36,445 bases of DNA from Dyella sp. EPa41 (lineage in GTDB: Bacteria > Pseudomonadota > Gammaproteobacteria > Xanthomonadales > Rhodanobacteraceae). Below the pieces are notes generated by a model that was not told the origin of the DNA, searched no databases, and was given only the letters and a program-made list of their open reading frames with translations. The translations under genes were made by a program, and so were the position numbers. Shown here in pieces: positions 4,170-24,646 of the stretch. The stretch's first letter is position 1, and every line of letters starts with the position of its first letter. The stretch lies in the NCBI RefSeq assembly GCF_016586165.1, contig NZ_BCPR01000047.1, positions 1-36,445 on the forward strand, read 5' to 3'.

Positions 4170-4200
4170 CGTGAGTGCCCCGTGGGCGCCAAAAGGTTGC
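4170..4200 (-). promoter_or_regulatory. Putative ECF promoter, copy A (sigma factor gene itself)
   Basis: Read on the minus strand, GCAACC (4200-4195) is followed after 15 bases by GGCACTCACG (4179-4170). The same pair with exactly the same spacing occurs five more times in this window. The distal element lies 30 bp before the sigma-factor ATG at 4140, leaving room for a leader of about 20 nt. A second GCAACC at 4167-4162 has no matching downstream element and is probably chance. Confidence 0.75.
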
Positions 4201-4209
4201 CCCGCGGCC

Positions 4210-4968
4210 TCAAAACGACCATGAGATCGTGGCCACCCACGGCGCCGTATCCGGGTAGCCATGCCGGTGCGGGAGCCCGGAGGTCGCCACGCGATCCACT
4301 TCCACGCGCCAGGGCCCGTCGTTCCAGAGCAGGCCGGCATGGCCGTAGCTGTAGGTGTCCCAACGGTTGTATTCGTAGCGCCCATGGCCATGCCCATAGT
4401 ACGCGTAGTAGGAGTAGGTGGCCTGGGTCACGCCCAGGCCCGCGGACAGCGAGAAATGCCAGGGCAGCGGCCAGTGGAAGCCGATGTCGGCGGCCCCGTG
4501 CAGATGGTGGTCGGTCTTGCCCACGGGGTAGATGGCGGCCACGCCCAGCGTGAGCACGTCCCGGTAGATCCAGGCCATGCCGGCCTCGGTGCGGTCGAAG
4601 CTGCGTGCCTGCGGGTTGCCGGGGTAGTCGTAGTAGACCAGGTTGGCCTGCATCTGCCAGTCCGGCGACAGCGACCACGAACGCGCGACCTGGGCCAGCG
4701 TCTCGGCGAAGCGATCGGGTTTCCGCGTCTCCACGCTGGCGGACGCTCCCACGGACCAGCCCTTCGCAAAGGACCAGGACATGGCGCCCTGGAGGATCGG
4801 TGTCTGGGGCGTCACGGCCTGGCCGCGATCCACCAGCTGCGAACTCAGCGCCACGGTGCCGCTCACCGTCGATGATTGCGCGTGGACGGCGAAAGGCAGG
4901 CAGGCGAGGAGAAGCAACGCCAGGCGGCGATGACGATCGCCAGGCCGGTCACCCGCGCGGCGGCGCAT
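4210..4968 (-). CDS. Outer-membrane beta-barrel protein, TorF/Gcw_chp-like putative porin
   Basis: About 252 aa from ATG 4968 (start uncertain; ATG 5007 and GTG 5046 are in frame but lengthen the signal peptide's n-region). The signal peptide has an arginine-rich start, a LALLLLACLPFAV core and probable cleavage after VHA. The mature protein has alternating aromatic/polar strands, opens with TVSGTVALSSQLVDRG and ends in Phe (ATISWSF), typical of outer-membrane barrels. The first strands resemble the TorF family (SS.LVDRG...P.LQG...W), but length and sequence leave other small barrels possible. A Tyr/His/Gly-rich loop (YSYYAYYGHGHGRYEY) is unusual. The promoter-like element C (5514-5544) points towards this gene from about 550 bp upstream, implying either a long leader or something extra in between. 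Confidence 0.72.
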   Translation of the reverse strand: MRRRAGDRPGDRHRRLALLLLACLPFAVHAQSSTVSGTVALSSQLVDRGQAVTPQTPILQGAMSWSFAKGWSVGASASVETRKPDRFAETLAQVARSWSLSPDWQMQANLVYYDYPGNPQARSFDRTEAGMAWIYRDVLTLGVAAIYPVGKTDHHLHGAADIGFHWPLPWHFSLSAGLGVTQATYSYYAYYGHGHGRYEYNRWDTYSYGHAGLLWNDGPWRVEVDRVATSGLPHRHGYPDTAPWVATISWSF

Positions 4969-5513
4969 GCAACGGCGGCCTGGGCGAAGGGCAGATGGTG
5001 CGCTCATGGGCGAATCAGGCTGGCCCGCAACGCCGGCGCCGTCCACGGGCCCGAGCCGGGGCCTTCGGCAAGCTGTCGGAGTGCGCCGCCCTGGCGCGCA
5101 CGGCAGACGTTGGCGTGGTCCGTGCGAAACCTTCGGCGCATGCGCCGCTCCCCGGCATGAAGTCCCACGGACCTTATACAGCCGGATGGGCCGGGGCGCC
5201 TATTCGACGAAACCGGTTTCAATGGAGCCTGTCGAGACAGGAGCGCAGGTCGTCCAGCGGCCTGGGATCAACCGGCGCGCTGTATGTCATCCCGGTGCCG
5301 GGGTTCGCCCTGGCGGGTGGCGGCAGGTGGCCGTGCGGCCGGTCCGCGCGCGACACGCCATCGTGCTGGCCAGCCCTTTCCCGATACTGCCTTTCCATAT
5401 TCCAGGTTGCCCATGCGCGTCGTGGGATTCCCTCTTTCCCCATGCGTCGTGCGCACGCTCTCCACGCATCCTCGGATGCCGCGGGAAGTCCTGAGGCAGG
5501 GCGGTCGTTGCCA

Positions 5514-5544
5514 CGTGGGTGCCGCCGGCTTCGCGAAAGGTTGC
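5514..5544 (-). promoter_or_regulatory. Putative ECF promoter, copy C (towards the porin)
   Basis: On the minus strand GCAACC (5544-5539) is followed after 15 bases by GGCACCCACG (5523-5514); the only departure from the consensus in the distal element is C for T. The bases after GCAACC (TTTCGC) are the same as in copy B, which lies 83 bp away in the opposite direction. It points at the porin gene but is far from it. Confidence 0.6.
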
Positions 5545-5626
5545 ATTCGCCGCCTGGTTTCCCGTGGCGACAAAAGGGCATGGCTGCAAACCGGTGGCCT
5601 CGATGCCGCGATCGAATTCTGCGAGC

Positions 5627-5657
5627 GCAACCTTTCGCCGGTCAGTTGGCACTCAGC
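5627..5657 (+). promoter_or_regulatory. Putative ECF promoter, copy B (polysaccharide operon)
   Basis: GCAACC (5627-5632), 15-base spacer, then GGCACTCAGC (5648-5657). It is 41 bp before the start codon of the first gene of the nine-gene run 5698-13950, in which no other gap is long enough for an obvious promoter, so it probably drives the whole operon. Confidence 0.75.
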
Positions 5658-5697
5658 TAACGACATCGCTCACGCGCGTTCCCGCCGGGCTACGGAC

Positions 5698-6132
5698 ATG
5701 GACATCGAACGAATCCAGTTGCAGCAGCATGGCGACAGCCGCGGCATGCTCATCGCGTTGGAAAAGGATCGCAACGTGCCGTTCGAGATCCAGCGCGTGT
5801 ACTACCTGTTCGCCACCAAGTGCGATGTGCATCGGGGCATGCACGCGCACCGCAACCTCAACCAGCTCGCGGTGACGGTGCGCGGCTCGGTGACGTTCCT
5901 TCTCGACGACGGCAGCGGCCCCTGCGAAGTCGTGCTCAACGATCCCTCGCAGGGCCTGCTGTTGCGCCGCATGGTGTGGCGCGAGATGTACGACTTCACC
6001 GAGGACTGCGTGCTGATGGTGCTGGCCGACCAGTTGTACGACCCGGCCGACTACATCACCGACTATGCGCTGTTCCTGCACGAGGTAGGGACCGCCTACC
6101 GGGGAGACATGGCGGCATGCCAAAGCGGTTAG
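5698..6132 (+). CDS. TDP-4-oxo-6-deoxy-D-glucose 3,4-ketoisomerase, FdtA/QdtA-type cupin
   Basis: The 144-aa cupin starts at ATG 5698 (MDIERIQL); the frame is open further upstream but the translation there is not protein-like and overlaps promoter B. The signature RGMHAHRNLNQLAV (His49, His51) matches the catalytic RGxHAHK segment of the FdtA/QdtA family, and WREMYDFTEDCVLMVLAD matches its conserved C-terminal strand. The enzyme moves the keto group of dTDP-4-keto-6-deoxyglucose from C4 to C3, the step before 3-amination. Whether the product is the Fuc3N (galacto) or Qui3N (gluco) branch cannot be told here. It is the first gene of the operon, and its end overlaps the acetyltransferase start by 16 bp. 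The rmlA/rmlB functions that supply its substrate are not in this window. Confidence 0.88.
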   Translation: MDIERIQLQQHGDSRGMLIALEKDRNVPFEIQRVYYLFATKCDVHRGMHAHRNLNQLAVTVRGSVTFLLDDGSGPCEVVLNDPSQGLLLRRMVWREMYDFTEDCVLMVLADQLYDPADYITDYALFLHEVGTAYRGDMAACQSG

Positions 6133-6782
6133 TGCTCATCGGAGCGGGTGAGCTGGCGCTGATCGCCTGCGAATATTTCGAGCATGACAGCGACTACGAC
6201 GTGGTCGCCTTCAGCGTCGAGCGCGACTATCTGGACCAGCCCACGCTGGCCGATCGGCCCGTGGTGGCCTATGAAGACCTGGAGGCGCATTACCCGCCGT
6301 CGGACTACGACGCCTTCGTGGCCATTCCCGCCAGCCAGCTCAACCGCCTGCGCACGCGCTTCTACCAGGACGCCAAGGCAAGGGGTTATCGCTTCGCCAC
6401 CTATGTCAGCTCGCGTGCCTTCGTATGGCGCAACGCGCAGATCGGCGAGAACAGCTTCATCTTCGAGAACAACGTCATCCAGCCGTTCGTGCGCATCGGC
6501 AACAACTGCATCCTGTGGAGCGGCAATCACGTGGGCCACCGAACGGTTATGCGGGACAACGTGTTCGTCGCCTCGCACGCGGTGATCTCGGGCTATTGCG
6601 ACATCGGCGAAAGCAGCTTCATCGGCGTCAACACCACGTTCAACGACCACGTGAAGGTCGCCCGGGACAACGTGATCGGTTCCGGCGCCCTGGTGACGCG
6701 CGATACGGAGGCAGGGCGGGTCTATGTCGGTTCGCCCGCGCGTGCGGTGCCGGACCGCTCCAGCCTCGACGTGAGGCTTTGA
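6117..6782 (+). CDS. NeuD/PglD-like acetyltransferase with left-handed beta-helix
   Basis: The 221-aa protein starts at ATG 6117 within the end of the isomerase gene. Its N-terminus (RLVLIGAGELALIACEYFE) is the Rossmann-like sugar-nucleotide-binding domain of NeuD/PglD-type enzymes. From about residue 105 hexapeptide repeats form a left-handed beta-helix (AQIGENSFIFENNVIQPFVRIGNNCILWSGNHVGHRTVM and onward; His175-type catalytic His likely in the GNHVGH stretch). The C-terminus (GSGALVTRDTEAGRVYVGSPARAVP) is the usual end of hexapeptide acyltransferases. In context it may N-acetylate the 3-amino sugar made by the flanking isomerase and aminotransferase, although it is larger than classical FdtC/QdtC; O-acetylation is an alternative. 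Confidence 0.83.
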   Translation: MPKRLVLIGAGELALIACEYFEHDSDYDVVAFSVERDYLDQPTLADRPVVAYEDLEAHYPPSDYDAFVAIPASQLNRLRTRFYQDAKARGYRFATYVSSRAFVWRNAQIGENSFIFENNVIQPFVRIGNNCILWSGNHVGHRTVMRDNVFVASHAVISGYCDIGESSFIGVNTTFNDHVKVARDNVIGSGALVTRDTEAGRVYVGSPARAVPDRSSLDVRL

Positions 6783-6787
6783 CGCCC

Positions 6788-7741
6788 ATGTTCGACTGGA
6801 CCAAGAAGGGGCTGGTCTTCGACACCGCCCACCAGGGCGTGGGTGGCTGGATGGCGCATTCGGCGCTCACGCCGACGCCATGGCGCATCGACGACGACCT
6901 CATCCGGGTCTACGCGGGCTTTCGCGACGAGGACGGCGTGAGCCGCATCGGTTACGTGGACGTGCTGGCCGACGAGCCCTCATCGATCGTGCGCGTCAGT
7001 GGCGAGCCGGTGCTGGATGTGGGGCGGGGCGGATGCTTCGACGACAGCGGCATGATCCTCGGTGATCTCGTGGACACGTCCGACGGCCTGTACATGTTCT
7101 ATGTCGGCTTCCAGCGCGTGGCGCGGGCCAAGTTCCTCGCCTTCACCGGCTTGGCGGTATCGCGCGACGGCGGCGAAAGCTTCGAGCGCATGCAGGAGAC
7201 GCCGATCCTGGATCGCGCGCCCGGGCGAAGCACCATCGGCGCCGTGCATTCGGTGCTGCGCGAGGGCGACCGCTGGCGGTTGTGGTACGCCGTGGGCGAC
7301 GACTGGGAAGTCATCGGCGGACGCCCGTTTCCGCGCTACCACATACGTTGCGTGGAGACGGACGACCTCACGGCGATTCCGCGCGAGGACCATGTCTGCC
7401 TGCAGCCGCACGGCAACGAGTACCGTATCGGCCGCCCGCGGGTCTACCGCTGGGGCGATGGTTACGCCATGTATTTCACGCGCGGCAACCTCACCGGTGA
7501 GTATTTCCCGGGGCTGGCCTACAGCGCCGATGGCATCCATTGGGAGCGCCACGACGAAGCCCTGGGCCTCTCGCTGTCGCCGAGCGGCTGGGACTCGCGC
7601 GTCATCTGTTATCCCTCGCTGATCCGCCAGCGCGACAAGCTGTTGATGTTCTACAACGGCAACGACATGGGGGTGGATGGCTTTGGCCTGGCGGTCGCTG
7701 CATTGCCGCGTCGCAACGGAGGCTTCCATGCTCTCGGTTAG
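6788..7741 (+). CDS. Glycosidase-like five-bladed beta-propeller protein (GH43/GH130-like fold)
   Basis: The 317-aa protein begins at ATG 6788, 5 bp after the acetyltransferase stop. It has no signal peptide. Repeated motifs such as DGLYMFYVGF, DRWRLWYAVGDDW, DGYAMYFTRGN and DKLLMFYNGNDMG have the spacing of the W/Y-rich strands found in five-bladed propeller glycosidases and glycoside phosphorylases of clans related to GH43, GH32 and GH130. A cytoplasmic propeller inside a polysaccharide operon is more likely to act on an intracellular sugar (phosphorolysis or transfer) or to bind it than to degrade polymer outside. Catalytic acids cannot be assigned with confidence. Confidence 0.72.
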   Translation: MFDWTKKGLVFDTAHQGVGGWMAHSALTPTPWRIDDDLIRVYAGFRDEDGVSRIGYVDVLADEPSSIVRVSGEPVLDVGRGGCFDDSGMILGDLVDTSDGLYMFYVGFQRVARAKFLAFTGLAVSRDGGESFERMQETPILDRAPGRSTIGAVHSVLREGDRWRLWYAVGDDWEVIGGRPFPRYHIRCVETDDLTAIPREDHVCLQPHGNEYRIGRPRVYRWGDGYAMYFTRGNLTGEYFPGLAYSADGIHWERHDEALGLSLSPSGWDSRVICYPSLIRQRDKLLMFYNGNDMGVDGFGLAVAALPRRNGGFHALG

Positions 7742-8657
7742 GCCCTACGCGCCGGCGGATGCGGATGCCTGGGACACGGTGATCGCCGAATCGCGGAACG
7801 GCGTGCTGCTGCATCGGCGCGGCTACATGGACTATCACGCGGAACGCTTCACCGACCGTTCGCTGGTGGTCGAGCGCAACGGCGTGCCGGTGGCCGTGCT
7901 GCCCGCGAACGTGCAGGGCAAGACGGTGGTGAGCCATGGTGGTCTCACCTACGGCGGACTGGTCTCGACCCGCGCCCTGCGCGCGGAATCGACGCTGGAG
8001 GTGTTCGGGAAGATCGCCGCGTTCTATCGCTCGCTGGGCATCGAGAAGCTTATCTACAAGGCGATTCCGCATGTGTTCCACAGCTATCCCGCCGAGGAAG
8101 ACCTGTATGCGCTGCATCGATCCGGTGCGCGGCTGAAGCGGCGCGATATCGCGTCGGTGATTGCGCTACAGGAGCCTTTTCGCTTCACCGACGAGCGCAA
8201 GCGTGCCGTGAACAAGGCGCGCGACGCGGGCATGCGCATCCAGCCGAACAGTGATCCGGCCGGCTTCCATGCCCTGCTGACGGACGTGCTGCGCAGGCAT
8301 GACGCGGTACCTACCCATCGCCTGGACGAGCTGTGCCTGTTGCAGTCGCGTTTTCCGGAGCACATCGTGCTTTACGAGGCGCGGCGTGAGGACGAGCTGC
8401 TTGCCGGTGCCGTGGTCTACGACTTCGGGCGCGTGGTGCACACGCAGTACCTGGCCGCCTCGGAAGAGGGGCGGCGCCTGAATGCGCTCAGCCTCCTGCT
8501 TGCGGAACTCATCGGGCGGTATGCGGGCCGGCACTATTTCTCCTTCGGCATCTCCACCGAGCAGGAAGGCCAGGTGCTGAACGGCGGGCTGGTCGCGCAG
8601 AAGGAGTACTTCGGCGCGCGCGGCATCGCGCACGACTTCTATGAATGGGTGCTCTGA
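7728..8657 (+). CDS. FemAB/GNAT-like acyltransferase
   Basis: The 309-aa protein starts at ATG 7728, overlapping the preceding gene by 14 bp. It has the double-GNAT layout of FemAB-like/BioF2-like acyltransferases (PF13480 type): an N-terminal GNAT-like half ([21 protein letters not shown]), the conserved [16 protein letters not shown] segment near residue 165, and a C-terminal half with [20 protein letters not shown] and [12 protein letters not shown]. Such proteins in polysaccharide clusters often transfer an acyl or aminoacyl group to an amino sugar. Together with the NeuD-like enzyme this gives two acyltransferases for one 3-amino sugar, so one may add an unusual N-acyl group (inference). 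Confidence 0.75.
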
Positions 8658-9769
8658 TGAGCGTGCCCTTTCTCAGCGCCAGGGACGTGAACGCGCGATA
8701 CGCGGATGAGCTCAAGGCCGCGGCGGCGCGCGTGATCGATTCGGGCTGGTACATCCTCGGCGAAGAGCTTGCCGCCTTCGAGCAGGAGTTCGCGGCCTAT
8801 TGCGGCGTGCGGCACGCCGTGGGCGTGGGCAACGGGCTCGACGCGCTGTCGGTGATCCTGCGGGGCTATCGGCAGCTTGGCATGTTGTGCGAGGGCGACG
8901 AAGTGATCGTACCCGGCAACACCTTCATCGCCAGCTTCCTGGCCATCACCGAAAACCGGCTGGTGCCGGTGCCGGTGGAACCCGACCCGGCGACGTTCAA
9001 TCTCGATCCCGCACGCGTGGAAGACGCGGTGGGGCCGCGCACGCGGGCCATCATGGCGGTGCACCTGTACGGCCAGCTGGCGGACATGGCCACGCTGTCG
9101 GCAGTGGCCCGGCAGCGGGGCCTGCTGCTGATCGAGGACGCGGCACAGGCGCATGGCGCGAGCATTGCCGGGCGCAAGGCGGGCGCCTGGGGCGATGCGG
9201 CGGGTTTCAGTTTCTTTCCCACCAAGAACCTGGGCGCGCTGGGCGACGGCGGTGCCGTGGTCACCGACGATGATGCGCTCGCCCGGTGCATCGCGGCGCT
9301 GCGCAACTACGGGTCGGAGGTGAAGTACCACCACGCGTACCAGGGCATCAATTCGCGACTCGACGAAATGCAGGCCGCGATGCTTCGCGTGAAGCTGAAG
9401 CATCTGGATGAGGACATCGCCCGCCGCCGCGCAGTGGCGCGCGGTTACCTGGCAGCCGTCCGCCATCCGGACATCCTGCTTCCCTCGGTCATCGACGCGG
9501 AGCGGCATGCCTGGCACCTGTTCGTGGTGCGCAGCGACCGGCGCGACGCCTTGCAGCGCCACCTGCATGATCTTGGTGTGCAGAGCCAGATCCATTATCC
9601 GGTGCCGCCGCACCTGCAGCCGGCGTATCCGGTGCTGCACGACGTCCATCTGCCGCTGACCGAACGCCTTCATCGCGAAGTGCTCAGCCTGCCCATGGGG
9701 CCGACCCTGGACGAGCACGCCATGGCGCAGGTGATCGATGCCTGCAATGCCTTCGGAGCCGCGTCGTGA
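8657..9769 (+). CDS. DegT/DnrJ/EryC1/StrS sugar aminotransferase, FdtB/QdtB-like
   Basis: The 370-aa PLP enzyme starts at ATG 8657, sharing one base with the previous stop (TGATG). Features of the family: an [19 protein letters not shown]-terminus, [10 protein letters not shown] phosphate-binding region, EDAAQAHGA, and [14 protein letters not shown] with the Schiff-base Lys190. The [25 protein letters not shown] segment is typical of the group that aminates C3 of dTDP-3-keto-6-deoxyhexoses. With the isomerase at 5698 it makes dTDP-Fuc3N or dTDP-Qui3N. The next gene starts with GTG overlapping its stop. Confidence 0.92.
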
Positions 9770-11040
9770 ACATCGTGCGCGCCAGCTTCTACACCGCCGC
9801 TTCCACCGCTGCGCGCCTGCTTGCCGGGCTGGTGGTGATGAAGCTGGTGGCGTGGTTTGCCGGGCCCGAGGGCGTGGGCAGGCTCGGCCAGTTCATGAGC
9901 CTGATGTCGCTGCTCGCCGTGCTCGCCGGTGGCGGCATCAGCGCCGGCGTCGTGAAGTACGTGGCGGAGTATCGCGACGACCACCCGCGCCTGGTACGCC
10001 TGCTCGGCGCCGCCCTGTGGTACGCGCTGGGTGCCTCGCTGCTGATGGGCGTGGCAACGCTGGTCTTCAGCCAGCCGCTGGCCCGGTGGCTGCTCGGCGA
10101 TGGACGCTACGCGGATCTCATGCGCGTGCTTGCCGTGGCGCAGCTGGGGATCGCGCTCGCCAATTACGTGCTGGCGGTGATCAACGGGTTCATGGACGTG
10201 CGTCGTCTCGCGCTGGTGCAGATCGCCGGTTCCGCGCTCAACGTGGCGATGGTGGCATGGCTGGCGCATTGGCTGCAGCTCTACGGCGCGCTGCTGGCGC
10301 TGGTGCTGGGCCAGGTGCTGTGGCTTGCGGTGGGTTTGCCGGCGTGGTGGCGCAGCCCGTACTTCCAGCGCGGCATGCTGCGCCTGCGCTTCGACCGGGA
10401 GATGATCGGGCGCCTCGCCGGCTTCTCGGTGATGACGCTGACCGCGGCCCTGGTGTCACCGCTGGTGAACATCGCGGTGCGCGACCACCTGGCCGCCCTG
10501 TTCGGTTGGGAGCAGGTGGGCTACTGGCAGGCGGTCAGCAAGGTGTCGGACGCCTACCTGCTGTTCATCACCACGGCCATCAACGTCTACTACCTGCCGA
10601 AGCTCGCCTCGATCGACGAGCGCGCCTTGCTCATCGCCGAGATGCGCAACGCGTACCGCTTCCTGTTGCCGCTGGTGGCCGTGCTGGCGCTTGCGATATT
10701 CATCGCGCGCGGCTGGGTGACGTGGCTGTTGTTCAGCGAGGGCTTCTCGCCGGCCAATGCCTTGTATGGGCCGCAGCTCGCGGGCGATGTGATCAAGATC
10801 GCCTCGTTCATCCTTTCCTATCTGATGCTGGCGAAGGCGATGACGCGCCTGTTCGTCGTCTCCGAATGCGTCTTTGCGGCCAGCTATCTCGGGCTGGTCT
10901 ACCTGTTCACCGCGAGCTTCGGCCTGGTGGGGGCCGTGTATGCGTTTGCGGCCAACTACACGCTGTATCTCCTCTTCAATGTGTGGGTCGCGCGTCGCTT
11001 TCTGGGAGGGCTGGGGCAATGGCTGCCGCAATATCCATGA
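9766..11040 (+). CDS. wzx: Polysaccharide flippase Wzx (MATE/MOP superfamily)
   Basis: The 424-aa protein starts at GTG 9766 with a GTGA overlap. It has about 12 hydrophobic segments and the opening [21 protein letters not shown], followed by [11 protein letters not shown], which is characteristic of the O-antigen/enterobacterial common antigen flippase group (WzxE-like). It should move lipid-linked repeat units across the inner membrane. Its place between nucleotide-sugar genes and the glycosyltransferase, polymerase and Wzz genes supports a Wzx/Wzy-dependent pathway. Confidence 0.9.
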
Positions 11041-11966
11041 GTGCCCCGGCGATGCCGCTGGTCTCCATCCTCATCCCGGCGTTCAACCATGAGCGCTATA
11101 TCGAGCGGTGCCTGGACAGCGTGCTGGAAGATCCCTACCCGTCGAAAGAGCTGGTGATCATCGACGACGGCTCCACGGACGACACCGCCGGGCGGATCGA
11201 TGCGTGGATAGCGCGGCACCGGCACGAGCTGGCGGTGGAGTTCGTCCGTCGCGACAACCGCGGCATTGCAGCCACCTTGAACGAGCTGGCGGCGCGCGCG
11301 CGGGGCGAATTCCTGCGGCTGGGTTCCAGCGACGACTACCTGTTGCCCGGCGGCCTGGCGGCCATGGTGGACTACCTGTCCGCCCATGCGCGCAAGTGGG
11401 CGGTGATCGGCGATTCGGTGGTGGTCGACCAGGACGGCCGGAAACTGCACGAGAGCGGCATGCGCGACCTTCATCGCGCCGACAAGCGCCTCTATGCCTC
11501 CGACGAGGGCATACGCCTTGCCGTCATCACCCAATGGGCCGTCGGCGGCCCGGTGGCCCTGGTGCGCAAGCGCGCGCTGGAAACCGTGGCCGGATGGAGC
11601 GAAAGCCTGCGCATCGATGACTGGGATTTCTTCCTGCGGCTCGCTGCGCACGATGCCATCGGCTTCATCGACAAGAACGTGTGCGCCTACCGCATCCACG
11701 GCACCAACCTGAGCCGCACGCGCGACACCCGCGCGCGTATCCTCAACCTGCTGGAGGCGCAGAGCGTGGCGATGCGACGGGAGTGCCTGTTCCAGGAGCC
11801 GTACCGCACCTTGCTGAGGGCGCAGTCGCACTACCTTGGCGCGAAGATCTCGTTCCTGCAGCGGCGGTTCGGTTCGGTGACCGTCCACATGCTGGTCTAT
11901 CTGTCGCTGCTGGCCGCCTCGCGTGTCAAGCGGCGCAGCGCGCTGCACCTCGCGGAGGGCGCATGA
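11037..11966 (+). CDS. Family 2 glycosyltransferase
   Basis: About 309 aa from ATG 11037 (ATGA overlap with wzx; an in-frame ATG at 11019 is less likely). The N-terminal GT-A domain shows VSILIPAFNHERYIERCLDSV, then VIIDDGSTDDTAGRI (nucleotide-binding Asp pair) and GEFLRLGSSDDY (DxD region). The IDDWDFFLRLA segment matches the usual ED-type acceptor-site loop. The C-terminal 60 residues are basic and amphipathic, suitable for membrane association. It is the only GT in the first operon, so further GTs for the repeat unit, including the initiating transferase, are presumably the two GT4 enzymes at 18.4-20.7 kb or lie outside the window. Confidence 0.9.
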   Translation: MSAPAMPLVSILIPAFNHERYIERCLDSVLEDPYPSKELVIIDDGSTDDTAGRIDAWIARHRHELAVEFVRRDNRGIAATLNELAARARGEFLRLGSSDDYLLPGGLAAMVDYLSAHARKWAVIGDSVVVDQDGRKLHESGMRDLHRADKRLYASDEGIRLAVITQWAVGGPVALVRKRALETVAGWSESLRIDDWDFFLRLAAHDAIGFIDKNVCAYRIHGTNLSRTRDTRARILNLLEAQSVAMRRECLFQEPYRTLLRAQSHYLGAKISFLQRRFGSVTVHMLVYLSLLAASRVKRRSALHLAEGA

Positions 11967-13986: not shown

Positions 13987-14017
13987 TCAACCAAAGCGGC
14001 GCGCGACGGCACTCACC
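13987..14017 (+). promoter_or_regulatory. Putative ECF promoter, copy F (methyltransferase/radical SAM operon)
   Basis: TCAACC (13987-13992), 15-base spacer, then GGCACTCACC (14008-14017). It lies in the 134-bp gap after wzz and points at the next six-gene operon. It differs from the other copies only in the first base of the -35-like part. Confidence 0.72.
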
Positions 14018-14025
14018 GCAGAAGG

Positions 14026-14975: not shown

Positions 14976-14979
14976 TGCG

Positions 14980-16907: not shown

Positions 16908-16927
16908 GGCTTTCCCGGACCACGCCC

Positions 16928-18433
16928 ATGGCCAACACCCTGCTGATCAATCCCACCATCACCTCGCGCAACAGCGCACGGTTTCCGCTGTCGCTGCTGA
17001 ACCTTGCATCCACGCTGGACCGCACCGGCAGCAGCCGCATCGTCGACGGCAATGTCGACCGCGACGTGGTCAACGAGGCATTGCGCGCGATGGAGAGCGA
17101 GCGGTTCCATGCCGTGGGCATCAGCGTGATGGGCGGCCCGCAACTGGCGCCGGCCATCGCGCTGTCCAAGGCGATTCGCGAGCGTCATCCGCGCGTGCCG
17201 ATCACCTGGGGTGGCTACTTCCCGACGCTCAACACCGAGGCGGCGCTAGCAGCGCCGTACGTGGACTACGCCATCCGGGGGCAGGGCGAGCAGACCTTCA
17301 GCGAACTGGTCGCGGCCTTGGGCAAGGCCGCCGTGCCCGATGTCAGCCGTATCGACGGCCTGTCGTGGAAGCAGGGCGCCACCATCGTGCACAACGCCCC
17401 TCGTCGTTTTACCTATGCCGATCCGGGCCGCGTGCTGCCCTACGACAAGCTGGGCGACCCGCGCCGCTACCTCGCGCGCACCTACCTCGGCCGTCGCACG
17501 GTGGCGCACCAGGCCGCGATCGGCTGTCGTTTCCACTGCACCTTCTGCGGCGTGGCGGCGATGTTCGGCGGCACCACGATGCTGTCGTCGGCGGAGCGCC
17601 TGGAGCGCGACCTGCGCTATTTCAAGCATGAGCTGGGCGCCGACTCGGTGCAGTACTTCGACAACAACTTCTTCGATCGCGAGGAGGACATGCTCCCGCT
17701 GCTCGAAGTGATGGCGCGCCATGAGCTGCCCTGGTGGTGTTTTGCCCGTTCGGACGCGCTGCTGAAGCTGTCCGACCAGGCGTGGAAGCTGGTGCGCAAG
17801 AGCAGGCTGCGGATGGCCTACATCGGTGCGGAGTCGCCCAGCGGCCAGATGCTCAAGGAGATCCGCAAGGGCACGCGTCCCGACCAGACGGTGGCGGTGG
17901 TGGAGGCATGCCGGCGGCATGGCGTGATTCCCGAGCTGTCCTTCATGGTCGCGCCGCCGGAGAACACCGAAGAGGAGACCGAACACACCTTCGAGTTCAT
18001 CCGCGAGCTGAAGAAGATCAATCCGCACACCGAGATCGTCATCTACGTCTACACGCCGTTGCCCGTCCACAGCCAGCACGAAAAGGACCGCGCCAGGCGG
18101 CCGTCCGCGCCGCTGTTCGACCTCAACGGCGAGCCCGTGGTTTTCCCGACGACGGTGGAAGAGTGGGCGCAGCCGCAGTGGGTCAACTACACCTGCCACG
18201 CGGATGCGCCGTGGCTGACCGACCGCATGCGCCAGCGCATCCACGATTTCGTCACCGTGCTGCGTTGCCGCTATCCCACCGTGCAGGACATGCGTTCGCC
18301 GCCGTGGGCCAAGCGTGCGCTGAGCACGGCGGCGTCATGGCGTTATCGCTTCCGTCGCTACGACCGGCCGTGGGAGCTCAATCTCGCCAATCGCCTGGTG
18401 CGCCTGCGCATGCCGCAGGTCTCGGGGCTCTGA
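16928..18433 (+). CDS. Radical SAM enzyme with B12-binding-like N-terminal domain (first of two)
   Basis: The 501-aa protein starts at ATG 16928. Residues about 1-145 form a cobalamin-binding-like Rossmann domain (LLINPT, AVGISVMGGPQLAPAI, ITWGGYFPT, YAIRGQGEQTF). The radical SAM domain has the cluster motif Cys200-x3-Cys204-x2-Cys207 (GCRFHCTFCGV) and later YIGAESPSGQMLKEIRKG and MVAPPENTEEE, as in the BchE/HpnJ-like group. Such enzymes do radical methylations, cyclisations or rearrangements on unactivated carbons. The adjacent methyltransferases, amidohydrolase and glycosyltransferases suggest modification of a sugar or small aglycone; the reaction cannot be named. Confidence 0.9.
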   Translation: MANTLLINPTITSRNSARFPLSLLNLASTLDRTGSSRIVDGNVDRDVVNEALRAMESERFHAVGISVMGGPQLAPAIALSKAIRERHPRVPITWGGYFPTLNTEAALAAPYVDYAIRGQGEQTFSELVAALGKAAVPDVSRIDGLSWKQGATIVHNAPRRFTYADPGRVLPYDKLGDPRRYLARTYLGRRTVAHQAAIGCRFHCTFCGVAAMFGGTTMLSSAERLERDLRYFKHELGADSVQYFDNNFFDREEDMLPLLEVMARHELPWWCFARSDALLKLSDQAWKLVRKSRLRMAYIGAESPSGQMLKEIRKGTRPDQTVAVVEACRRHGVIPELSFMVAPPENTEEETEHTFEFIRELKKINPHTEIVIYVYTPLPVHSQHEKDRARRPSAPLFDLNGEPVVFPTTVEEWAQPQWVNYTCHADAPWLTDRMRQRIHDFVTVLRCRYPTVQDMRSPPWAKRALSTAASWRYRFRRYDRPWELNLANRLVRLRMPQVSGL

Positions 18434-18437
18434 ACCG

Positions 18438-19580
18438 GTGGCCTCGCTGCACGTCGCCCAGATCAATTTCATACCTCCGCCGGCCACCTGGGAACCGGGC
18501 GAGGTGTTCCGGCATTGGCCGTCGCTGCCCAACGTGGCCGAAGCGGTACGCGGCAGCGGAACACGCGTGACGGTGATCCAGTTGGCGTCGCGCGCGGCGC
18601 GCATCGGGCGCCACGGCGTGGACTATCGCTTCGAGAGCATCGAGGGTGCGCCGCGGCCGGCCGATCGCGGCCGTCTCGTCGCGCGCGTGCTCGAATCCCT
18701 CGATGTCAATGTCGATGTCATCCATGTCAACGGGCTGGGCTTCGGCGAGGAAACCTTCGCCTTGGCAGGCCGCCTGCCTGACGTGCCCATCGTGCTGCAG
18801 GACCACGCCAATCGTCCGCCGCGCTGGTGGCAGCGGCCGCTGTGGCGCCGGTGGTATCGCGTGGCCTCGGGCATGGCTTTCACCGCCATCGAGCAGGCGA
18901 GGCCCTTCGTCGATGCCGGCCTGTTCGAGGCGTCGCTGCCCTTGTTTGCCATTCCCGAATCCAGCAGCCACTTCGAGCCGGGAAGCCGTATGCGGGCGCG
19001 GCTCGAGGCGGGGATGCATGGCGATCCCTGCGTGCTGTGGGTGGGGCATCTCAATCGCAACAAGGACCCGCTGACGATGCTCGAAGGCGTGGCCCAGGCC
19101 ACTTCGCGATTGCCGGGCCTGCAGCTGTGGTGCGCCTTCGGCAGCGCGCCGCTGATGGACGAGGTTCGGCAACGCATCGACGGCGATGCGCGACTGGCCG
19201 GTCGCGTCCATCTCATGGGCAGGGTGGAGCATGCGCGCGTGGAGACGCTCATGCGCGCCGCGGACATCTACCTCTCGGCCAGCCATGTGGAAGGCAGCGG
19301 CTACGCACTGCTGGAGGCCATGGCGTGCGGCGCCATGCCGTTGGTGACCGACATTCCGTCGTTCCGCTCGTTCACGGCGGGCGGCACGGTAGGGCGCCTC
19401 TGGCCGCGTGGCGACGCCGCGGCGCTTGCGGCCGCCTTGGTCGGCGCGGCGGTCGAATCGGCCTCGCGCGAACAGGTGCGCGCCCATTTCGAGGCGAGGC
19501 TGTCGTTCGAGGTGGTGGGGCGACTGTGGTCTCGCGCGTATGCGCAATTGATCGAGCAACGCCTGCGGAGAGCATCGTGA
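18438..19580 (+). CDS. Family 4 glycosyltransferase (first of two)
   Basis: The 380-aa protein starts at GTG 18438, 4 bp after the radical SAM stop. It has GT-B features: N-terminal domain ending in QDHANRPPRWW, then the C-terminal donor domain opening with CVLWVGHLNRNKDPLTMLEGV, RVHLMGRV and the ASHVEGSGYALLEAMACGAMPLVTD donor-binding motif (E-x7-E type; Glu of VEGSGYALLE). It should transfer a sugar from an activated donor in the cytoplasm. The next GT4 gene overlaps its stop (GTGA). Confidence 0.9.
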   Translation: MASLHVAQINFIPPPATWEPGEVFRHWPSLPNVAEAVRGSGTRVTVIQLASRAARIGRHGVDYRFESIEGAPRPADRGRLVARVLESLDVNVDVIHVNGLGFGEETFALAGRLPDVPIVLQDHANRPPRWWQRPLWRRWYRVASGMAFTAIEQARPFVDAGLFEASLPLFAIPESSSHFEPGSRMRARLEAGMHGDPCVLWVGHLNRNKDPLTMLEGVAQATSRLPGLQLWCAFGSAPLMDEVRQRIDGDARLAGRVHLMGRVEHARVETLMRAADIYLSASHVEGSGYALLEAMACGAMPLVTDIPSFRSFTAGGTVGRLWPRGDAAALAAALVGAAVESASREQVRAHFEARLSFEVVGRLWSRAYAQLIEQRLRRAS

Positions 19581-20689
19581 AGCTCGCCCTGGTGGTGCCG
19601 GGCGGGGTGGACCGCACGGGCGAGTTCCGGGTCATCCCGGTATTGCTCGCGTTGATCGAACGGCTGGCGCGCGTGCATGAAGTGCACGTGTTCGCGCTGC
19701 GGCAGGAGCCTGCGCCGGATTGCTGGGAGCTTGCCGGTTCGACGGTGCACAATATCGGCGACGGCTGGTCGCGCGTTCGCGCCATCGCCGCCATCCGGGG
19801 CGAACACCGCCGCCAGCCCTTCGACGTGGTGCAAGCGATCTTCTCCGGTTCCTGCGGCTTGGTCGCGGTGGCCGCCGCCAGGTTGCTGGGCCTGCCGAGC
19901 CTGGTGCATGTCGCGGGCGGCGAACTCGTCGCCATGCATGACATCGACTACGGCGGTCGCCGCCGCTGGAAAGGGCGGCTGCGCGAGGCAGTGGTGCTGC
20001 GCGCCGCGGACGTCGTGACGGGAGCCAGCGGGCCCATCGTCGACTCGCTGCGCGCGCTGGGCATCAAGGCACGTCGGGTACCGCTCGGCGTCGACCTGCG
20101 CTCCTGGCCGCCGGTCTGTCCGCGCGAACGTCGCAGCGAAACGGCGCGGCTCATCCACGTCGCCAGCCTCAATCGCGTGAAGGACCAGCCGACCCTGCTG
20201 CGCGCGCTTGCCGTGTTGGCGCGGCAGGGCGTGGCGTTCCGGATGGATATCGTCGGCGTGGATACGCTGCAGGGCGAAGTGCATGACCTAGTGCGCCAGC
20301 TCGACCTCGAACGCCACGTGCGCCTGCTCGGCTTCAAGACCCAGCGCGAGTTGCGGCCACTGATGGAAGCGGCCGACCTGCTCGTCATGTCCTCGTGCCA
20401 TGAGGCGGGACCGCTCGTTTTGCTGGAGGCCGCCGCCGTGGGCGTGCCTACGGTGGGTACGGCGGTGGGGCATATCGCCGAATGGACGCCGGCCGCGGCG
20501 CTGGCGGTGCCGGTGGGCGACTGGCGGGCGCTGGCGGGGGCTGTAGCGCGTGTGCTGGCCGATGAGCCGCTGCGCCTGCGCATGGCGTTGGCGGCGCAGC
20601 GCAAGGCCATGCTGGAGGACGCCGATTACACCGCCAAGTCGTTCGAGACGCTGTACCTGCAGCTGCTTACGGACGGCCTCGACGACTGA
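19577..20689 (+). CDS. Family 4 glycosyltransferase (second of two)
   Basis: The 370-aa protein starts at GTG 19577, overlapping the previous stop by four bases. N-terminal GT-B half: KLALVVPGGVDRTGEFRVIP and LVHVAGGELVAMHDIDYGG. Donor half: LIHVASLNRVKDQPTLLRAL, RHVRLLGFKTQRELRPLMEAADLLVMSS, then CHEAGPLVLLEAAAVGVPTVGT (E-x7-E). It is the last gene of the six-gene operon and ends 9 bp from the convergent nucleotidyltransferase gene. Confidence 0.9.
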   Translation: MKLALVVPGGVDRTGEFRVIPVLLALIERLARVHEVHVFALRQEPAPDCWELAGSTVHNIGDGWSRVRAIAAIRGEHRRQPFDVVQAIFSGSCGLVAVAAARLLGLPSLVHVAGGELVAMHDIDYGGRRRWKGRLREAVVLRAADVVTGASGPIVDSLRALGIKARRVPLGVDLRSWPPVCPRERRSETARLIHVASLNRVKDQPTLLRALAVLARQGVAFRMDIVGVDTLQGEVHDLVRQLDLERHVRLLGFKTQRELRPLMEAADLLVMSSCHEAGPLVLLEAAAVGVPTVGTAVGHIAEWTPAAALAVPVGDWRALAGAVARVLADEPLRLRMALAAQRKAMLEDADYTAKSFETLYLQLLTDGLDD

Positions 20690-20698
20690 CGGGTTGGA

Positions 20699-21909
20699 TT
20701 ATGCCGCCGGCGATTCCAACGCGACACGCACCGCAAACATCATGTCCATGCGCGGCACGGGCTGGGTCAGCCAGGTCAGCATGCGTCGCCTCTGGGGCGC
20801 GGTGACCCAGCGCTGGTCGCGCAGCCACAGCTGCGTGCGCACCATGTCCTTGCGCTGATCGATCGCCTCCTGGGGCGGCGGATGCGGTTCTTCACGTATT
20901 GCGCGGCGTCGCCCAGCGAGCGCGACCATTCGATGCCGGGAAAAGCGTGCAGCCACAGGTCGGAGCAGGACACCTGCGTCAGGGTCTGGCGGCGGGACAT
21001 GGTTCGCAGGATCGCCGGGCACGCGGCATGCAGTCGACTCAGTACCGCCTCGGGAATGGCGCCCGGGTAGTAACGTGCCGCCATCGTCAGCGGCGGAAAC
21101 GCCCACCATGCCGGCCCCACGATGCGTTCGTCGAGGCAGTGGCCCCAGTCGTCCGGTGACATGCGCGCCGACAGCTGGGCAATGTCATGCAAATGCAACA
21201 GGCGCAGGCTGCGGTTGCAGATATTGCCGGCCGCGTGCAGCAGCAGGTGGCTCATCAATGCGCCCGTCGACGGATAGGCATTCAGTCCGTCGTGGGGTTG
21301 CGAGGGATGGATCTGTTCCGAAATGTCCGTCACGGAGACGGGCAGGCGCTCCTGGATGTGGACATGCAGCTCGATATTGATCGGCGTGTCGCGGTGTTCA
21401 CCCAGCACTGCCGGCGGTTCGGCCGCACGCGGCTTGAACACGCGGTGCTTCCATTGCTCGAACGATGTCACGTAGCCGAGTTGCAGCAGCAGTCGCGACG
21501 TCCGCTCGGCGGCCGATCCGTGCACGAGCAGGTCGATGTCCGCCATGGGGCGCTCGCCGGGAACGTAGAGTCCCAGCGCATGCAGCGCGCAGCCTTTCAA
21601 CGGCACCAGGGCCACGCCGGCGGAACGTGCTGCCTGGTCGATCTGCTCCAGCAGGGCCGCGATCCGCAGGTGGCGCAGCGCGACATGCTCGCGCTGGGCG
21701 ACGAGGAAATGCCGCCACTCGGGCACGTCCCACGTGCAGCCCCGGCTGAGCAGGGGCGACACGCCATGCACCGCGGACGACACCGCAGCCAGCCGCCATT
21801 CCAGCTCGCTCCAGTCGGGCGTCGCGCTTCCCGGCTGCGCCAGCTCCGCCGCCAGCGCTTCGGTGGTGCGGCGCAGGCCATCCTTGATGATCTTCAGTGG
21901 AGGCAGCAT
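20699..21909 (-). pseudogene. Nucleotidyltransferase-fold protein (PF14907 type) with a frameshift near its C-terminus
   Basis: The minus-strand gene starts at ATG 21909. The N-terminal domain has VPLKGCALHALGLY and ERPMADIDLLV (Asp124, Asp126), the KG...D-x-D pattern of the NTP_transf_5 family, which occurs with HprK-like kinases and exporters in peptide and glycan clusters. After about residue 343 the reading frame turns into Arg-rich nonsense and stops at 20776, while the plus-one frame continues a good protein-like sequence (MVRTQLWLRDQRWV, then MLTWLTQPVPRMD) to TAA at 20699. Adding one base to the run of four C (plus-strand GGGG 20872-20875) restores one frame of about 403 aa. It is a real single-base loss or a sequencing error; the catalytic part is intact either way. 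It sits 10 bp downstream of the radical SAM gene. Confidence 0.8.
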
Positions 21910-21919
21910 GAGTCGGCGC

Positions 21920-23407
21920 TCAGAGCGATACCTGGGCCTTGCCCTTCGGCGCCGGCAACGGCATGGCCGGCACGGCTTCCGTGCGGTGCCCGGCCTCGGT
22001 GGCGATCAAGGCGTCCCAACGGGCGTCGAGCGCGATCCACGCACGATCATCCCGCCGCCGCGTCGGGGCCGACGCCTGTTGCAGTACGACCTGCTCGTGC
22101 AGCAGGTCGCGGAAGCTGCGGTAGAAATCGGAGTCGTAGGCGCCGCGGAACATCATGGCGAGGTCGTTGCTTTCGCGCCAATGCGTCTTCTCGCCCAGCT
22201 GCGCCTTCACCTGCTCGTAGAACTTGGTGCCCGGCAGCGGATAGGAGACGCTCACGCCGATATCGTCCGGCGCGGCGCGCTCGATCAGCTCGCGCGTCGC
22301 CAGCAGGTCCGCCAATTGTTCGCCAAGGTAGCCGAGCTGGATGAAGAAGCCGACGCGGATGCCGAGCGCGCCAAGGCGTTCGCGTGCCGCGATCAGGTCG
22401 GCGACATGCGTGCCCTTGTTCATGCGGTCCAGCACGCGTTGGCTGCCGCTCTCGGCGCCCAGCCACGCTTCCGCGCAGCCGGCGCGTTTCAGCGCGGCTG
22501 CCATGCGCTCGCTGATGAGGTCGGCGCGGGTCTGGATGGTGAAGGGCACGGAGCCATCGACCGCTTCGAGATGGTCGGCGAATTCCTCCACCCAGTTCAC
22601 GTGGAAGCCGAAGATGTCGTCGGCCATCCAGACGTGGTCGGGGCGGAAGCTCGCCTTGAGGTGGCTCATTTCCTCGGCTACGTCCTGCGCGGTGCGACGG
22701 TTGTAGTGATTGCCCCAGATCGGTTTCGCGCACCAGTTGCAGCGGAAGGGGCAGCCGCGCGATGCGGCCATGTTGAGGCTGAAGTAGCCGTGCCGCTCCT
22801 GCCACATCGCGCGGTAGCGATCGACGTCGACCAGATCCCACGCCGGATGGCCGACGATGCGCGGATCGGGCGGCAACACGCCGACGCGAGTGAGCCGGGT
22901 TTCGCCGCTGTCCAGCGATGCCACGCCGGCGATGCCCGACACCCAGGTGCGCGTATCGATATCCGGTTCGCGTTCGAGCCGGCCGATAAGCTCGATCAGC
23001 GGCGCAACACCTTCGCCGATCAATACGGCATGCGCGCCCGCGGCAAGAAAGGCGTCGGGCTGGTCCGAGGCATCGGAGCCGGCGACGATCACCCGTGCGC
23101 CGGCGGCACGCGCTTCGCCGATCATCTGGCACGCTGCCTCGCGCATGCGGGCCAGGCACATCTTGGTCAGGTAATTGAAGTTGTCCTCGTAGAGCACGAC
23201 CACGTCGGGCCGTCGTGCGCGCACGTCGTGTCCGAACGATTCCACGTCGTCCGCGAGCATCGCATCGAACAGTGCGACGGCATGGCCCATGCGCCGCAGC
23301 AGCGCAGCGACCTGGATGGTGGCCAGCGGAGGGTAGGGTTTACCGCGCTCCCACTGTTTCCGGTCGAACCTCAGGTAATAGGAATGGCCGACCTGGATTT
23401 TCAGCAT
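21920..23407 (-). CDS. Radical SAM enzyme with B12-binding-like N-terminal domain (second of two)
   Basis: The 495-aa protein starts at ATG 23407 (MLKIQVGHS); an in-frame start at 23461 would add 18 Arg-rich residues that do not look like protein. Residues 1-145: cobalamin-binding-like domain (ATIQVAALLRRMGHAVALFDAM, VIVAGSDASDQPDAFLAAGAHAVLIGEG). The cluster motif is Cys219-x3-Cys223-x2-Cys226 (SRGCPFRCNWCAKPIWG), followed by VWMADDIFGF and WLGAESGSQRVLDRMNKGT. The C-terminus has VSYPLPGTKFYEQVKAQLG, typical of BchE-like enzymes and different from the first copy. It is the first gene of a two-gene minus operon under element E. Confidence 0.9.
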   Translation of the reverse strand: MLKIQVGHSYYLRFDRKQWERGKPYPPLATIQVAALLRRMGHAVALFDAMLADDVESFGHDVRARRPDVVVLYEDNFNYLTKMCLARMREAACQMIGEARAAGARVIVAGSDASDQPDAFLAAGAHAVLIGEGVAPLIELIGRLEREPDIDTRTWVSGIAGVASLDSGETRLTRVGVLPPDPRIVGHPAWDLVDVDRYRAMWQERHGYFSLNMAASRGCPFRCNWCAKPIWGNHYNRRTAQDVAEEMSHLKASFRPDHVWMADDIFGFHVNWVEEFADHLEAVDGSVPFTIQTRADLISERMAAALKRAGCAEAWLGAESGSQRVLDRMNKGTHVADLIAARERLGALGIRVGFFIQLGYLGEQLADLLATRELIERAAPDDIGVSVSYPLPGTKFYEQVKAQLGEKTHWRESNDLAMMFRGAYDSDFYRSFRDLLHEQVVLQQASAPTRRRDDRAWIALDARWDALIATEAGHRTEAVPAMPLPAPKGKAQVSL

Positions 23408-23463
23408 TGCCGGGAAGCCTCTATCGGGGCGCCGGATCCGGCAGGTTCGCCGTCCAGGCACAT
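23401..23463 (-). CDS. Possible 20-codon leader ORF upstream of the second radical SAM gene
   Basis: ATG at 23463 lies 12 bases after promoter element E and the frame ends at TGA 23403-23401, overlapping the radical SAM start by seven bases. No function is suggested by the peptide. Its position parallels the short frames after elements D and F, so translational coupling is possible, but chance cannot be excluded. Confidence 0.25.
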   Translation of the reverse strand: MCLDGEPAGSGAPIEASRQC

Positions 23464-23475
23464 CGCTCAGTTGGA

Positions 23476-23506
23476 CGTGAGTGCCCTGTGGCAGCGCCGG
23501 GGTTGC
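23476..23506 (-). promoter_or_regulatory. Putative ECF promoter, copy E (second radical SAM operon)
   Basis: On the minus strand GCAACC (23506-23501), 15-base spacer, GGCACTCACG (23485-23476). It is 69 bp before the radical SAM start codon, in the 177-bp divergent gap. No equivalent element points the other way towards the HprK-like kinase gene. Confidence 0.75.
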
Positions 23507-23584
23507 CTGCGCGGCAAAAAATATTTGGATGTCCGTACGGGTGGCGATGTGCTATCACATGGCCGGGCTCTTCTCCCCGCATCC

Positions 23585-24607
23585 ATGGCCATTTCTTCTC
23601 TTTCCGACCTCGGCGAAACCAGCCTCGATCCGTTCCTGGAGCGGACCGGCGAGCGCGAGGTCGTACGCGTCCACGCGCTGGGTGGCGATTTCCGTTTCGA
23701 AAGCGACAGCCCCGAGCTGCTGCACCTGGTCCGGCTTGCCTATGCGGGCCTGCCGGCGCACCGCCTGCCGGTATCCGCACCACAGTTCCATATCGAACTG
23801 CGTTTGCTGCCGGGCCGCGCGGGGCAGGGTGCCGGCGAGCCGCCGATGGTGCGTGCGCAGTCGGGAGCAGGCCTGCTGTGTGGCGTGATGGACGAGTGCA
23901 ATTACGTCGTGATGTCGCCGCAGCAGGGCAGGGCCCTGGTGGTCGCTTCGCGCGACATGCTGGCCAACCCCTACCACCTGCGCTACGAACTCATCGAGTT
24001 CGCGGTGTTCACCCTGGCGACGCGCCGGTTGGGCCTGGTGCCCTTGCACGGCGCCTGCGTGGGCCTGCATGGCCGCGGCCTGCTGTTGCTCGGGGCCAGT
24101 GGCGCGGGCAAGTCCACCCTGGCCTTGCACAGCCTGCTGCGCGGGCTGGATTTTCTCGCGGAAGACGCGGTTTTCGTCGAGCCGGCGAGCCTCTGCGCCA
24201 CCGGCGTCGCCAACTTTCTCCACGTGAAGGACGATGCACTCGGCTTCGTCGACGATGGCGCCGTGCAGTCGTGGATTCGCGGCGCGCCGGTGATCCGGCG
24301 CCGCAGCGGCGTGGAGAAACACGAAGCGGATCTGCGGCGTGCCCCCGTTCCGCATGCCACCGGTCCGCTCGAGTTGATCGGCGCCGTATTCGTATCGGGC
24401 CAGCCGGCAAGCGATCCGGGCCGACTGCTGCGCGCCATGCCTGCCGATGCCATCGCTGCGAGGCTGGTGGGAGACCAGCCGTACGCAAGCGGCCAGCCCG
24501 GCTGGCAGGGCTTCCAGCAGCGCATGGTGGAGCGGGGCGCCTACGAGTTGCATCGCGGCGTGCATCCCCAGGCCTCCGTCGATGCCTTGCTGACCCTGCT
24601 CGCCTGA
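23585..24607 (+). CDS. HPr kinase/phosphorylase-like kinase (HprK-related)
   Basis: The 340-aa protein starts at ATG 23585. Its C-terminal half has the HprK fold: PLHGACVG (His155), P-loop LLGASGAGKSTLAL (Gly170-Thr178), and FLAEDAVFV (Glu193, Asp194), the counterpart of the acidic segment after the HprK P-loop. The N-terminal part has VVRVHALGGDFRFESDSPEL, similar to the opening of HprK-related kinases that accompany PqqD-like proteins and nucleotidyltransferases in exosortase or lasso-peptide loci. True HPr kinases act on HPr of the PTS; this relative more likely phosphorylates a peptide or sugar. No PqqD-like or precursor gene is visible here. It is transcribed alone or with the ABC gene; no element of the repeated promoter type precedes it. 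Confidence 0.82.
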   Translation: MAISSLSDLGETSLDPFLERTGEREVVRVHALGGDFRFESDSPELLHLVRLAYAGLPAHRLPVSAPQFHIELRLLPGRAGQGAGEPPMVRAQSGAGLLCGVMDECNYVVMSPQQGRALVVASRDMLANPYHLRYELIEFAVFTLATRRLGLVPLHGACVGLHGRGLLLLGASGAGKSTLALHSLLRGLDFLAEDAVFVEPASLCATGVANFLHVKDDALGFVDDGAVQSWIRGAPVIRRRSGVEKHEADLRRAPVPHATGPLELIGAVFVSGQPASDPGRLLRAMPADAIAARLVGDQPYASGQPGWQGFQQRMVERGAYELHRGVHPQASVDALLTLLA

Positions 24608-24615
24608 CGCGCAAG

Positions 24616-24646
24616 GCAACCGTTTCGCCCCTGGCAGGCACTCACC
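24616..24646 (+). promoter_or_regulatory. Putative ECF promoter, copy D (ABC exporter)
   Basis: GCAACC (24616-24621), 15-base spacer, GGCACTCACC (24637-24646). It starts 9 bp after the kinase stop codon and lies 68 bp before the ABC exporter start. Its presence between two same-strand genes shows that the exporter can be switched on separately from the kinase. Confidence 0.73.

Follow-up and report, generated by a model that had tools for sequence, protein, structure and literature searches.

The window analysed here, a stretch of 36,445 nucleotides that forms contig 47 of the 4.92-Mb genome of the soil bacterium Dyella sp. EPa41 (G000 in our genome numbering), carries six copies of a bipartite element, KCAACC-N15-GGCACYCA, which the adjacently encoded extracytoplasmic function (ECF) sigma factor very probably reads as its promoters. 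The host is close to Dyella jiangningensis, and its sigma factor is 99% identical to that of D. jiangningensis strain SBZ 3-12. What the DNA shows directly is where the sites lie, how they are spaced, that they are conserved at orthologous genes and that they co-occur with the sigma gene; from these data, we infer both that the sigma factor encoded at 3559-4140 recognizes the sites and how it may be released from its membrane-bound anti-sigma factor.

A discrete set of probable promoter elements

An earlier reading of this DNA (the original prediction) had proposed that six elements of identical architecture define a local regulon of an autoregulated sigma factor. The pattern indeed has exactly six matches in the window, all at the predicted positions, and none in 100 dinucleotide shuffles (Table 1). 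Twelve positions are invariant at one fixed spacing, as proposed, and the gene calls place every copy between genes; the predicted length of 31 bp included two flanking bases and is corrected to 29 bp. For element 5, an orthologous site is present in another Dyella genome (G005, locus L165), and the same locus contains the counterpart of element 6 (25.9 bits, CGCACTCA).

Rather than being scattered, the matches in the entire host genome number eight, six of them inside the island, and a reversed control pattern yields none. When up to two mismatches are allowed, the pattern matches 179 times and the control 256 times. The exact set thus stands apart, with eight matches free of mismatches versus three listed with a single mismatch, and with the control prevailing at the relaxed setting. 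Near-matches with one or two mismatches were rejected as additional regulon members because the control pattern produces more of them; two of the three single-mismatch cases resemble a TGTAGGAGCGCACC repeat. As a side observation, several near-matches (C31:32619, C50:3353, C2:128469 and others) trace back to a dispersed TGTAGGAGCGCACCCA repeat that imitates the -10 box.

Conservation of the predicted promoter from Dyella to Xanthomonas

To follow the element in relatives, we used the best 80 of the 112 sigma loci found and a matrix built from exact sites, with a threshold of at least 12 bits. It detected 222 sites in the 1.55 Mb of these loci; reversed loci, which overlap in part and total 2.17 Mb, contained none at 12 bits and three at 10 bits. 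From Dyella to Xanthomonas, a site lies upstream of the sigma gene in 75 of the 80 loci and upstream of fdtA in 68 of the 71 loci that hold this gene, there at 33-47 bp from the start codon, so that the motif is kept at orthologous positions, as expected from the original prediction. Sites also precede the gene for cytochrome b561 (51 of 55 loci), the methyltransferase gene (nine of the 11 loci in which it was found in the fetched stretch) and a gene for a decaheme cytochrome (seven of 15 loci). Among the eight decaheme loci not counted, the gene lies downstream of the subtilase gene or folE2, in line with the sigma operon, in four (L062, L063, L066 and L076); the site falls 124 bp inside the called decaheme frame in L095, the locus is cut by a contig end in L044, and no site was found ahead of the gene in L022 and L097.

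Twelve sites in the 80 loci have no assigned gene. Five face outwards from the edge of the fetched stretch (L019, L020, L055, L070 and L077), five belong to a haem slot in which the b561 and decaheme genes are absent or have a differently called start (L019, L020, L033, L057 and L095), and two remain (L022 and L059). In L009, an EamA call seems to be an antisense artefact over its N-terminal half.

The two boxes are conserved, and the sequence of the spacer is not. The -10 box has drifted in the Xanthomonas loci: on the fdtA side, the usual ending is CGCACTCA or TGCACTCA, and on the sigma side, endings such as GGCACTGA, GGCACCTA or CGCACTGA are found.

Linkage of the motif to the sigma gene

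The sigma factor comprises 193 amino acids and contains only regions 2 and 4 (PF04542, PF08281 and the sigma70-ECF family TIGR02937, all above cut-off), the composition and approximate length (about 190 residues) typical of ECF (group 4) sigma factors. The anti-sigma gene follows with a 4-bp overlap, and a homolog lies downstream of the sigma gene in all 80 loci; it overlaps in turn with the subtilase gene, which is followed by folE2. As originally proposed, the first element precedes the sigma gene, so that, as judged by sequence, a bipartite promoter with a -35 AAC and a -10 box stands ahead of the gene for its putative reader.

Motif and sigma gene also occur together. The strict motif is present in 16 of 20 Dyella genomes, and the same 16 encode the sigma factor at 81% identity or more; the other four have neither, one of them carrying a 46% paralog. 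Among 147 genomes of the family, a looser motif was detected in 48 of 55 sigma-positive and seven of 92 sigma-negative genomes, confirming the predicted co-conservation (Fisher p 1.6e-23, a value that overstates the evidence because the genomes are related). Six of the seven motif-positive genomes that lack a close sigma factor carry one with 49-54% identity. In four of them (G066, G080, G115 and G048), the motif lies 65-91 bp upstream of the matched part of this gene, and in G104 an exact motif lies about 1 kb away in divergent orientation, with an ACAACC variant 146 bp upstream. This attachment of the motif to sigma genes of only about 50% identity is the strongest sign of autoregulation. 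In one Dyella genome, we additionally noted a second sigma gene (L164, G019:C1:3009600-3017600) whose product is 75-76% identical, together with homologs of the anti-sigma factor, subtilase and porin; it has its own promoter element about 30 bp upstream.

Predicted regulon members outside the island

The original prediction described a local regulon, the cluster at 4-26 kb. The predicted regulon is not only local, because the other two exact sites of the host genome lie on other contigs and are conserved in other species. One precedes a gene for an exported-looking AhpC/TSA peroxiredoxin (contig 5), the other a methyltransferase/flavin-reductase gene pair (contig 56). All 16 sigma-positive Dyella genomes, and none of the four others, encode an AhpC ortholog (E at most 1e-60); the flavin reductase (E at most 1e-40) is encoded by 14 of the 16 and likewise by none of the four. 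A site precedes the AhpC gene in ten of the 16 genomes and the gene pair in 12 of 14; in G002 and G003, the AhpC gene has no site of its own and directly follows the flavin-reductase gene. In locus L170, a single element is followed on one strand by the genes for the methyltransferase and flavin reductase, folE2 and the AhpC gene, an order that ties these unlinked targets to the folE2 gene of the sigma operon.

Alternative explanations for the elements

Several observations weigh against a regulon of this sigma factor. The exact pattern has some chance matches: the 20 Dyella genomes contain 67 of them and ten of the control pattern, so that about half a match per genome can be chance. The matrix used for bit scores was trained on exact matches that stem in part from the same loci. 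Several strict sites (e.g. in L160, L166 and L168) have no conserved target that could be named; none was found for the single sites in L166, L167, L168, L169 and L174, and L160, included because of a strict match, contains nothing above 18 bits. The looser motif is missing from seven sigma-positive genomes; two of these, G005 and G012, do carry the strict pattern, but not the TT. The four negative Dyella genomes may represent one clade. G138 has the motif and no sigma match, and in G044 the motif and the 49-54% sigma gene are on different contigs. Finally, leaving aside G002 and G003, the AhpC gene lacks a site in four of 16 genomes (G007, G012, G013 and G016) and the flavin-reductase gene in two of 14.

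The elements might instead be bound by a different transcription factor whose gene lies in or near the island, given that activator sites and promoters are inseparable at the level of sequence and that a gene pair at 31.8-33.9 kb of the window looks, by eye, like a two-component system. We consider this improbable, since the spacer measures 15 bp in 79 of the exact matches (16 bp in three, 17 bp in one and never 10-14 or 18-21 bp), the distances to the start codons are short, as in the fdtA loci, the element does not read as a palindrome, and the motif accompanies the sigma gene even next to paralogs of about 50% identity with no island gene nearby. Far less probable still is a role as sigma-54 promoters. 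The -24 element of such promoters resembles GGCAC, and the window copies at 4172 and 5516 additionally carry GG-N10-GC, but this -24/-12 combination occurs in just 11 of 113 distinct instances, a frequency similar to that at several neighbouring offsets, and sigma-54 promoters are not known to contain an upstream GCAACC box, which is conserved here at a fixed distance; we therefore rejected this explanation. The original prediction is right in its core, an autoregulated sigma factor with promoters of its own, and the discrete, conserved and sigma-linked promoter set gives it more support than was visible from the window alone.

Haem modules in the porin slot

Among the targets of the original prediction, the porin calls for a correction. 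In relatives, the slot assigned to the porin serves a cytochrome module, which the host's clade has lost and of which the window retains a fragment. This module comes in two types, with b561 or decaheme genes in 70 of the 80 sigma loci. The first (b561 in 55 loci) comprises cytochrome b561, an outer-membrane protein with one CxxCH motif and a cytochrome c. The second (15 loci) comprises a DmsE-type decaheme cytochrome, an MtrB/PioB porin and a diheme cytochrome c; in four cases, it sits downstream of the sigma operon instead. The example in L095 has the make-up of an MtrAB/PioAB conduit, with TIGR03508 and PF11854 above and TIGR03509 below cut-off, and 10 CxxCH motifs.

Four loci with a diverged sigma/anti-sigma/subtilase cassette (L149, L150, L151 and L154) continue with the decaheme, MtrB/PioB and diheme genes, and none of the island genes turned up in the 19 kb read; a fifth (L152) has the diverged cassette without the conduit. 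Because the cassette of these distant relatives runs with the conduit, the polysaccharide is probably a later recruit. The trans-outer-membrane haem conduit would then be the ancestral output, to which the polysaccharide island was added and which later became uncoupled from the sigma factor in the host's clade. Conversely, the island could represent the primary regulon and the conduit an incidental neighbour. The fdtA operon accompanies the sigma gene very constantly, in 71 of the 80 sigma loci, but the four diverged loci and the b561 gene, which shares the promoter slot in 51 of 55 loci, make this reading less likely. We thus favour an ancestral conduit.

Several further observations concern these modules. 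The host has a separate decaheme/MtrB-PioB/diheme gene set (L205, contig 98, 9519-13488), in which the contig ends inside the decaheme gene; no site of at least 9 bits was found on this 13.5-kb contig or in the stretches read of G001, G008 and G010. Among loci devoid of a haem module, an element facing the haem slot is kept in D. jiangningensis L019 (39.6 bits) and Rhodanobacter L057 (35.1 bits), and none of 15 bits is seen in Rhodanobacter L054 and L064.

Anti-sigma factor, subtilase and a possible release step

The anti-sigma factor contains the HxxxCxxC motif of zinc-binding anti-sigma (ZAS) proteins, with H37, C41 and C44 invariant in 52 aligned sequences; zf-HC2 scores below the Pfam cut-off in the protein from the window and above it in those of L067, L095 and L097 (six anti-sigma factors tested). 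The subtilase (PF00082, E 9e-30) has an Asp-His-Ser triad, D192, H225 and S375, that is invariant in 36 sequences, and its best fold match is pro-subtilisin E (3whi, E 1e-15), as expected for an S8 fold.

The periplasmic domain of the anti-sigma factor looks like a subtilisin propeptide, which suggests the adjacent subtilase as the gate of the switch. It is tempting to speculate that the domain copies the propeptide, that the subtilase of the same operon recognizes and cuts it, and that an envelope or redox signal is thereby coupled to the conduit (in relatives), redox defence and polysaccharide. The promoter reading itself is much more probable: RNA polymerase containing the sigma factor would read the elements, with GCAACC(TTT) as the -35 and GGCACYCA as the -10 box, turning on the sigma operon itself (sigma, anti-sigma, subtilase and probably folE2), the polysaccharide island, the unlinked peroxiredoxin gene and the methyltransferase/flavin-reductase pair. 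In the proposed release, the anti-sigma factor would bind the sigma factor with its zinc-finger domain and the subtilase with its propeptide-like domain, until an envelope or redox signal allows the subtilase to make the site-1 cut and a site-2 protease completes the cleavage, freeing the sigma factor. This release scheme is tentative, and we regard it as somewhat less likely than not.

In its disfavour, the likeness to the beta-alpha-beta-beta-alpha-beta fold of solved propeptides and I9-like inhibitors is in the middle range: the best Foldseek E is 0.03, unrelated folds reach similar Z scores (a ribosomal protein 7.6, FtsX 7.1), hhalign gives the propeptide match a probability of 9%, and a Fervidolysin_NPro-like Pfam match was seen below cut-off in one of six anti-sigma factors. 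Moreover, the Xanthomonas subtilases of L067 and L087 lack, by eye, the lipoprotein cysteine. It is quite conceivable, if somewhat short of an even chance, that the subtilase has no part in signalling and instead, as an output of the regulon, processes exported proteins, and that the anti-sigma tail shares a common fold with propeptides by chance. This explanation has to accommodate that 31 of the 50 structure matches listed are, by title, subtilisin-family prodomains, pro-forms or POIA1, that LAEPV-like residues at the end of the anti-sigma factor correspond to LAQPL in the subtilase prodomain, and that the three genes remain together in the sigma loci and the five diverged loci.

Genes of the window

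Operon limits in Table 1 were inferred from gene spacing, and the GH32-like and Wzy-like labels rest on matches below cut-off. The HPr-kinase-like gene was missing from the gene list of the original prediction; it replaces a call on the opposite strand (23555-24565, minus) made by a codon script. The block at 20776-26466, with the genes for the second radical SAM enzyme, NTP_transf_5, the HPr-kinase-like protein and the ABC exporter, looks like a tailoring/export unit.

Table 1. Elements and genes of the window.
Feature	Position	Strand	Remarks
Element 1	4172..4200	-	-35 GCAACC, -10 GGCACTCA; 31 bp upstream of sigma start codon
Element 2	5516..5544	-	547 bp ahead of porin gene; cytochrome c remnant between
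Element 3	5627..5655	+	upstream of fdtA-wzz operon; 42 bp to fdtA start codon
Element 4	13987..14015	+	heads methyltransferase/amidohydrolase/radical SAM/glycosyltransferase operon; 69 bp to methyltransferase start codon
Element 5	23478..23506	-	heads radical SAM 2/NTP_transf_5 operon; 70 bp to start codon
Element 6	24616..24644	+	upstream of ABC exporter; 70 bp to start codon
FolE2 GTP cyclohydrolase	629..1594	-	downstream of subtilase
Subtilase (Peptidase_S8)	1632..2936	-	prodomain; lipoprotein signal judged by eye
Membrane anti-sigma factor	2933..3562	-	N-terminal HxxxCxxC anti-sigma domain; one transmembrane segment (from sequence and model); periplasmic domain about 138-209
ECF sigma factor	3559..4140	-	Sigma70_r2, Sigma70_r4_2
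TorF/Gcw_chp family putative porin	4210..4968	-	above cut-off in one profile search; Pfam below cut-off
Cytochrome c remnant	5219..5362	-	C-terminal 48 residues, 46% identity, E 5.6e-9, no CxxCH
Operon FdtA, hexapeptide acyltransferase, GH32-like, GNAT, DegT aminotransferase, Wzx, GT2, Wzy-like, Wzz	5698..13950	+	
Operon methyltransferase, amidohydrolase, methyltransferase, B12-radical SAM, two group-1 glycosyltransferases	14085..20689	+	
Operon B12-radical SAM 2, NTP_transf_5 nucleotidyltransferase	20776..23407	-	
HPr-kinase-like gene	23540..24607	+	between elements 5 and 6; 33.1 bits vs cut-off 33.3
ABC exporter (membrane domain and ATPase)	24715..26466	+	

Discussion

Autoregulated regulons of an ECF sigma factor and a membrane-bound anti-sigma factor include RpoE-RseA of Escherichia coli and AlgU-MucA of Pseudomonas aeruginosa, and the targets of AlgU include alginate. 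The Dyella system resembles them in its Sigma70 regions 2 and 4, its anti-sigma factor with a cytoplasmic domain and one transmembrane segment, and its -35/-10 element ahead of both the sigma gene and the targets; like AlgU with alginate, it has extracellular polysaccharide among its predicted targets. The structures of AlgU-MucA and SigW-RsiW are among the listed structure matches of the anti-sigma factor. Unlike in RpoE-RseA and AlgU-MucA, the boxes are GCAACC and GGCACYCA, the periplasmic part of the anti-sigma factor looks propeptide-like, the operon includes a subtilase gene, and the targets comprise B12-radical SAM genes and, in relatives, haem conduits.

The porin-cytochrome conduits Mtr, Mto and Pio (PMC5566968, PMC10654088) are a close parallel to the relatives' module, in which a decaheme DmsE/MtrA-type cytochrome (10 CxxCH motifs) is encoded beside an MtrB/PioB porin; unlike them, this module adjoins an ECF sigma cassette and includes a diheme cytochrome. 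Xanthomonas campestris 8004 has ten ECF factors, rpoE1 to rpoE10, according to passages of a study centred on RpoE1, and one of the ten may be the ortholog of the Dyella sigma factor, for which these passages give no promoter motif (PMC6085468). The Xanthomonas orthologs in our set are 69-73% identical to the Dyella protein. At the level of titles and the beginnings of abstracts, which is no proof of absence, we found no description of this sigma factor or its promoter, of a subtilase acting as an anti-sigma protease or of an ECF-controlled MtrB/PioB module. The system represents a known kind of regulon with an unusual set of targets, and its link to a protease is possibly new.

Collectively, our findings point to one predicted regulon across the Rhodanobacteraceae and Xanthomonas that would unite surface polysaccharide, radical SAM enzymes, cytochrome and MtrB/PioB-type modules, a peroxiredoxin and a flavin reductase. 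Since the promoter word is specific, as indicated by its absence at 12 bits from the reversed loci, further members should be found by scanning. Both the promoter and the sigma factor of this predicted regulon are defined, and its proposed release step is open to testing; if the propeptide-like nature of the anti-sigma factor holds true, subtilases would join the proteases to which the first cut in anti-sigma factors is ascribed.

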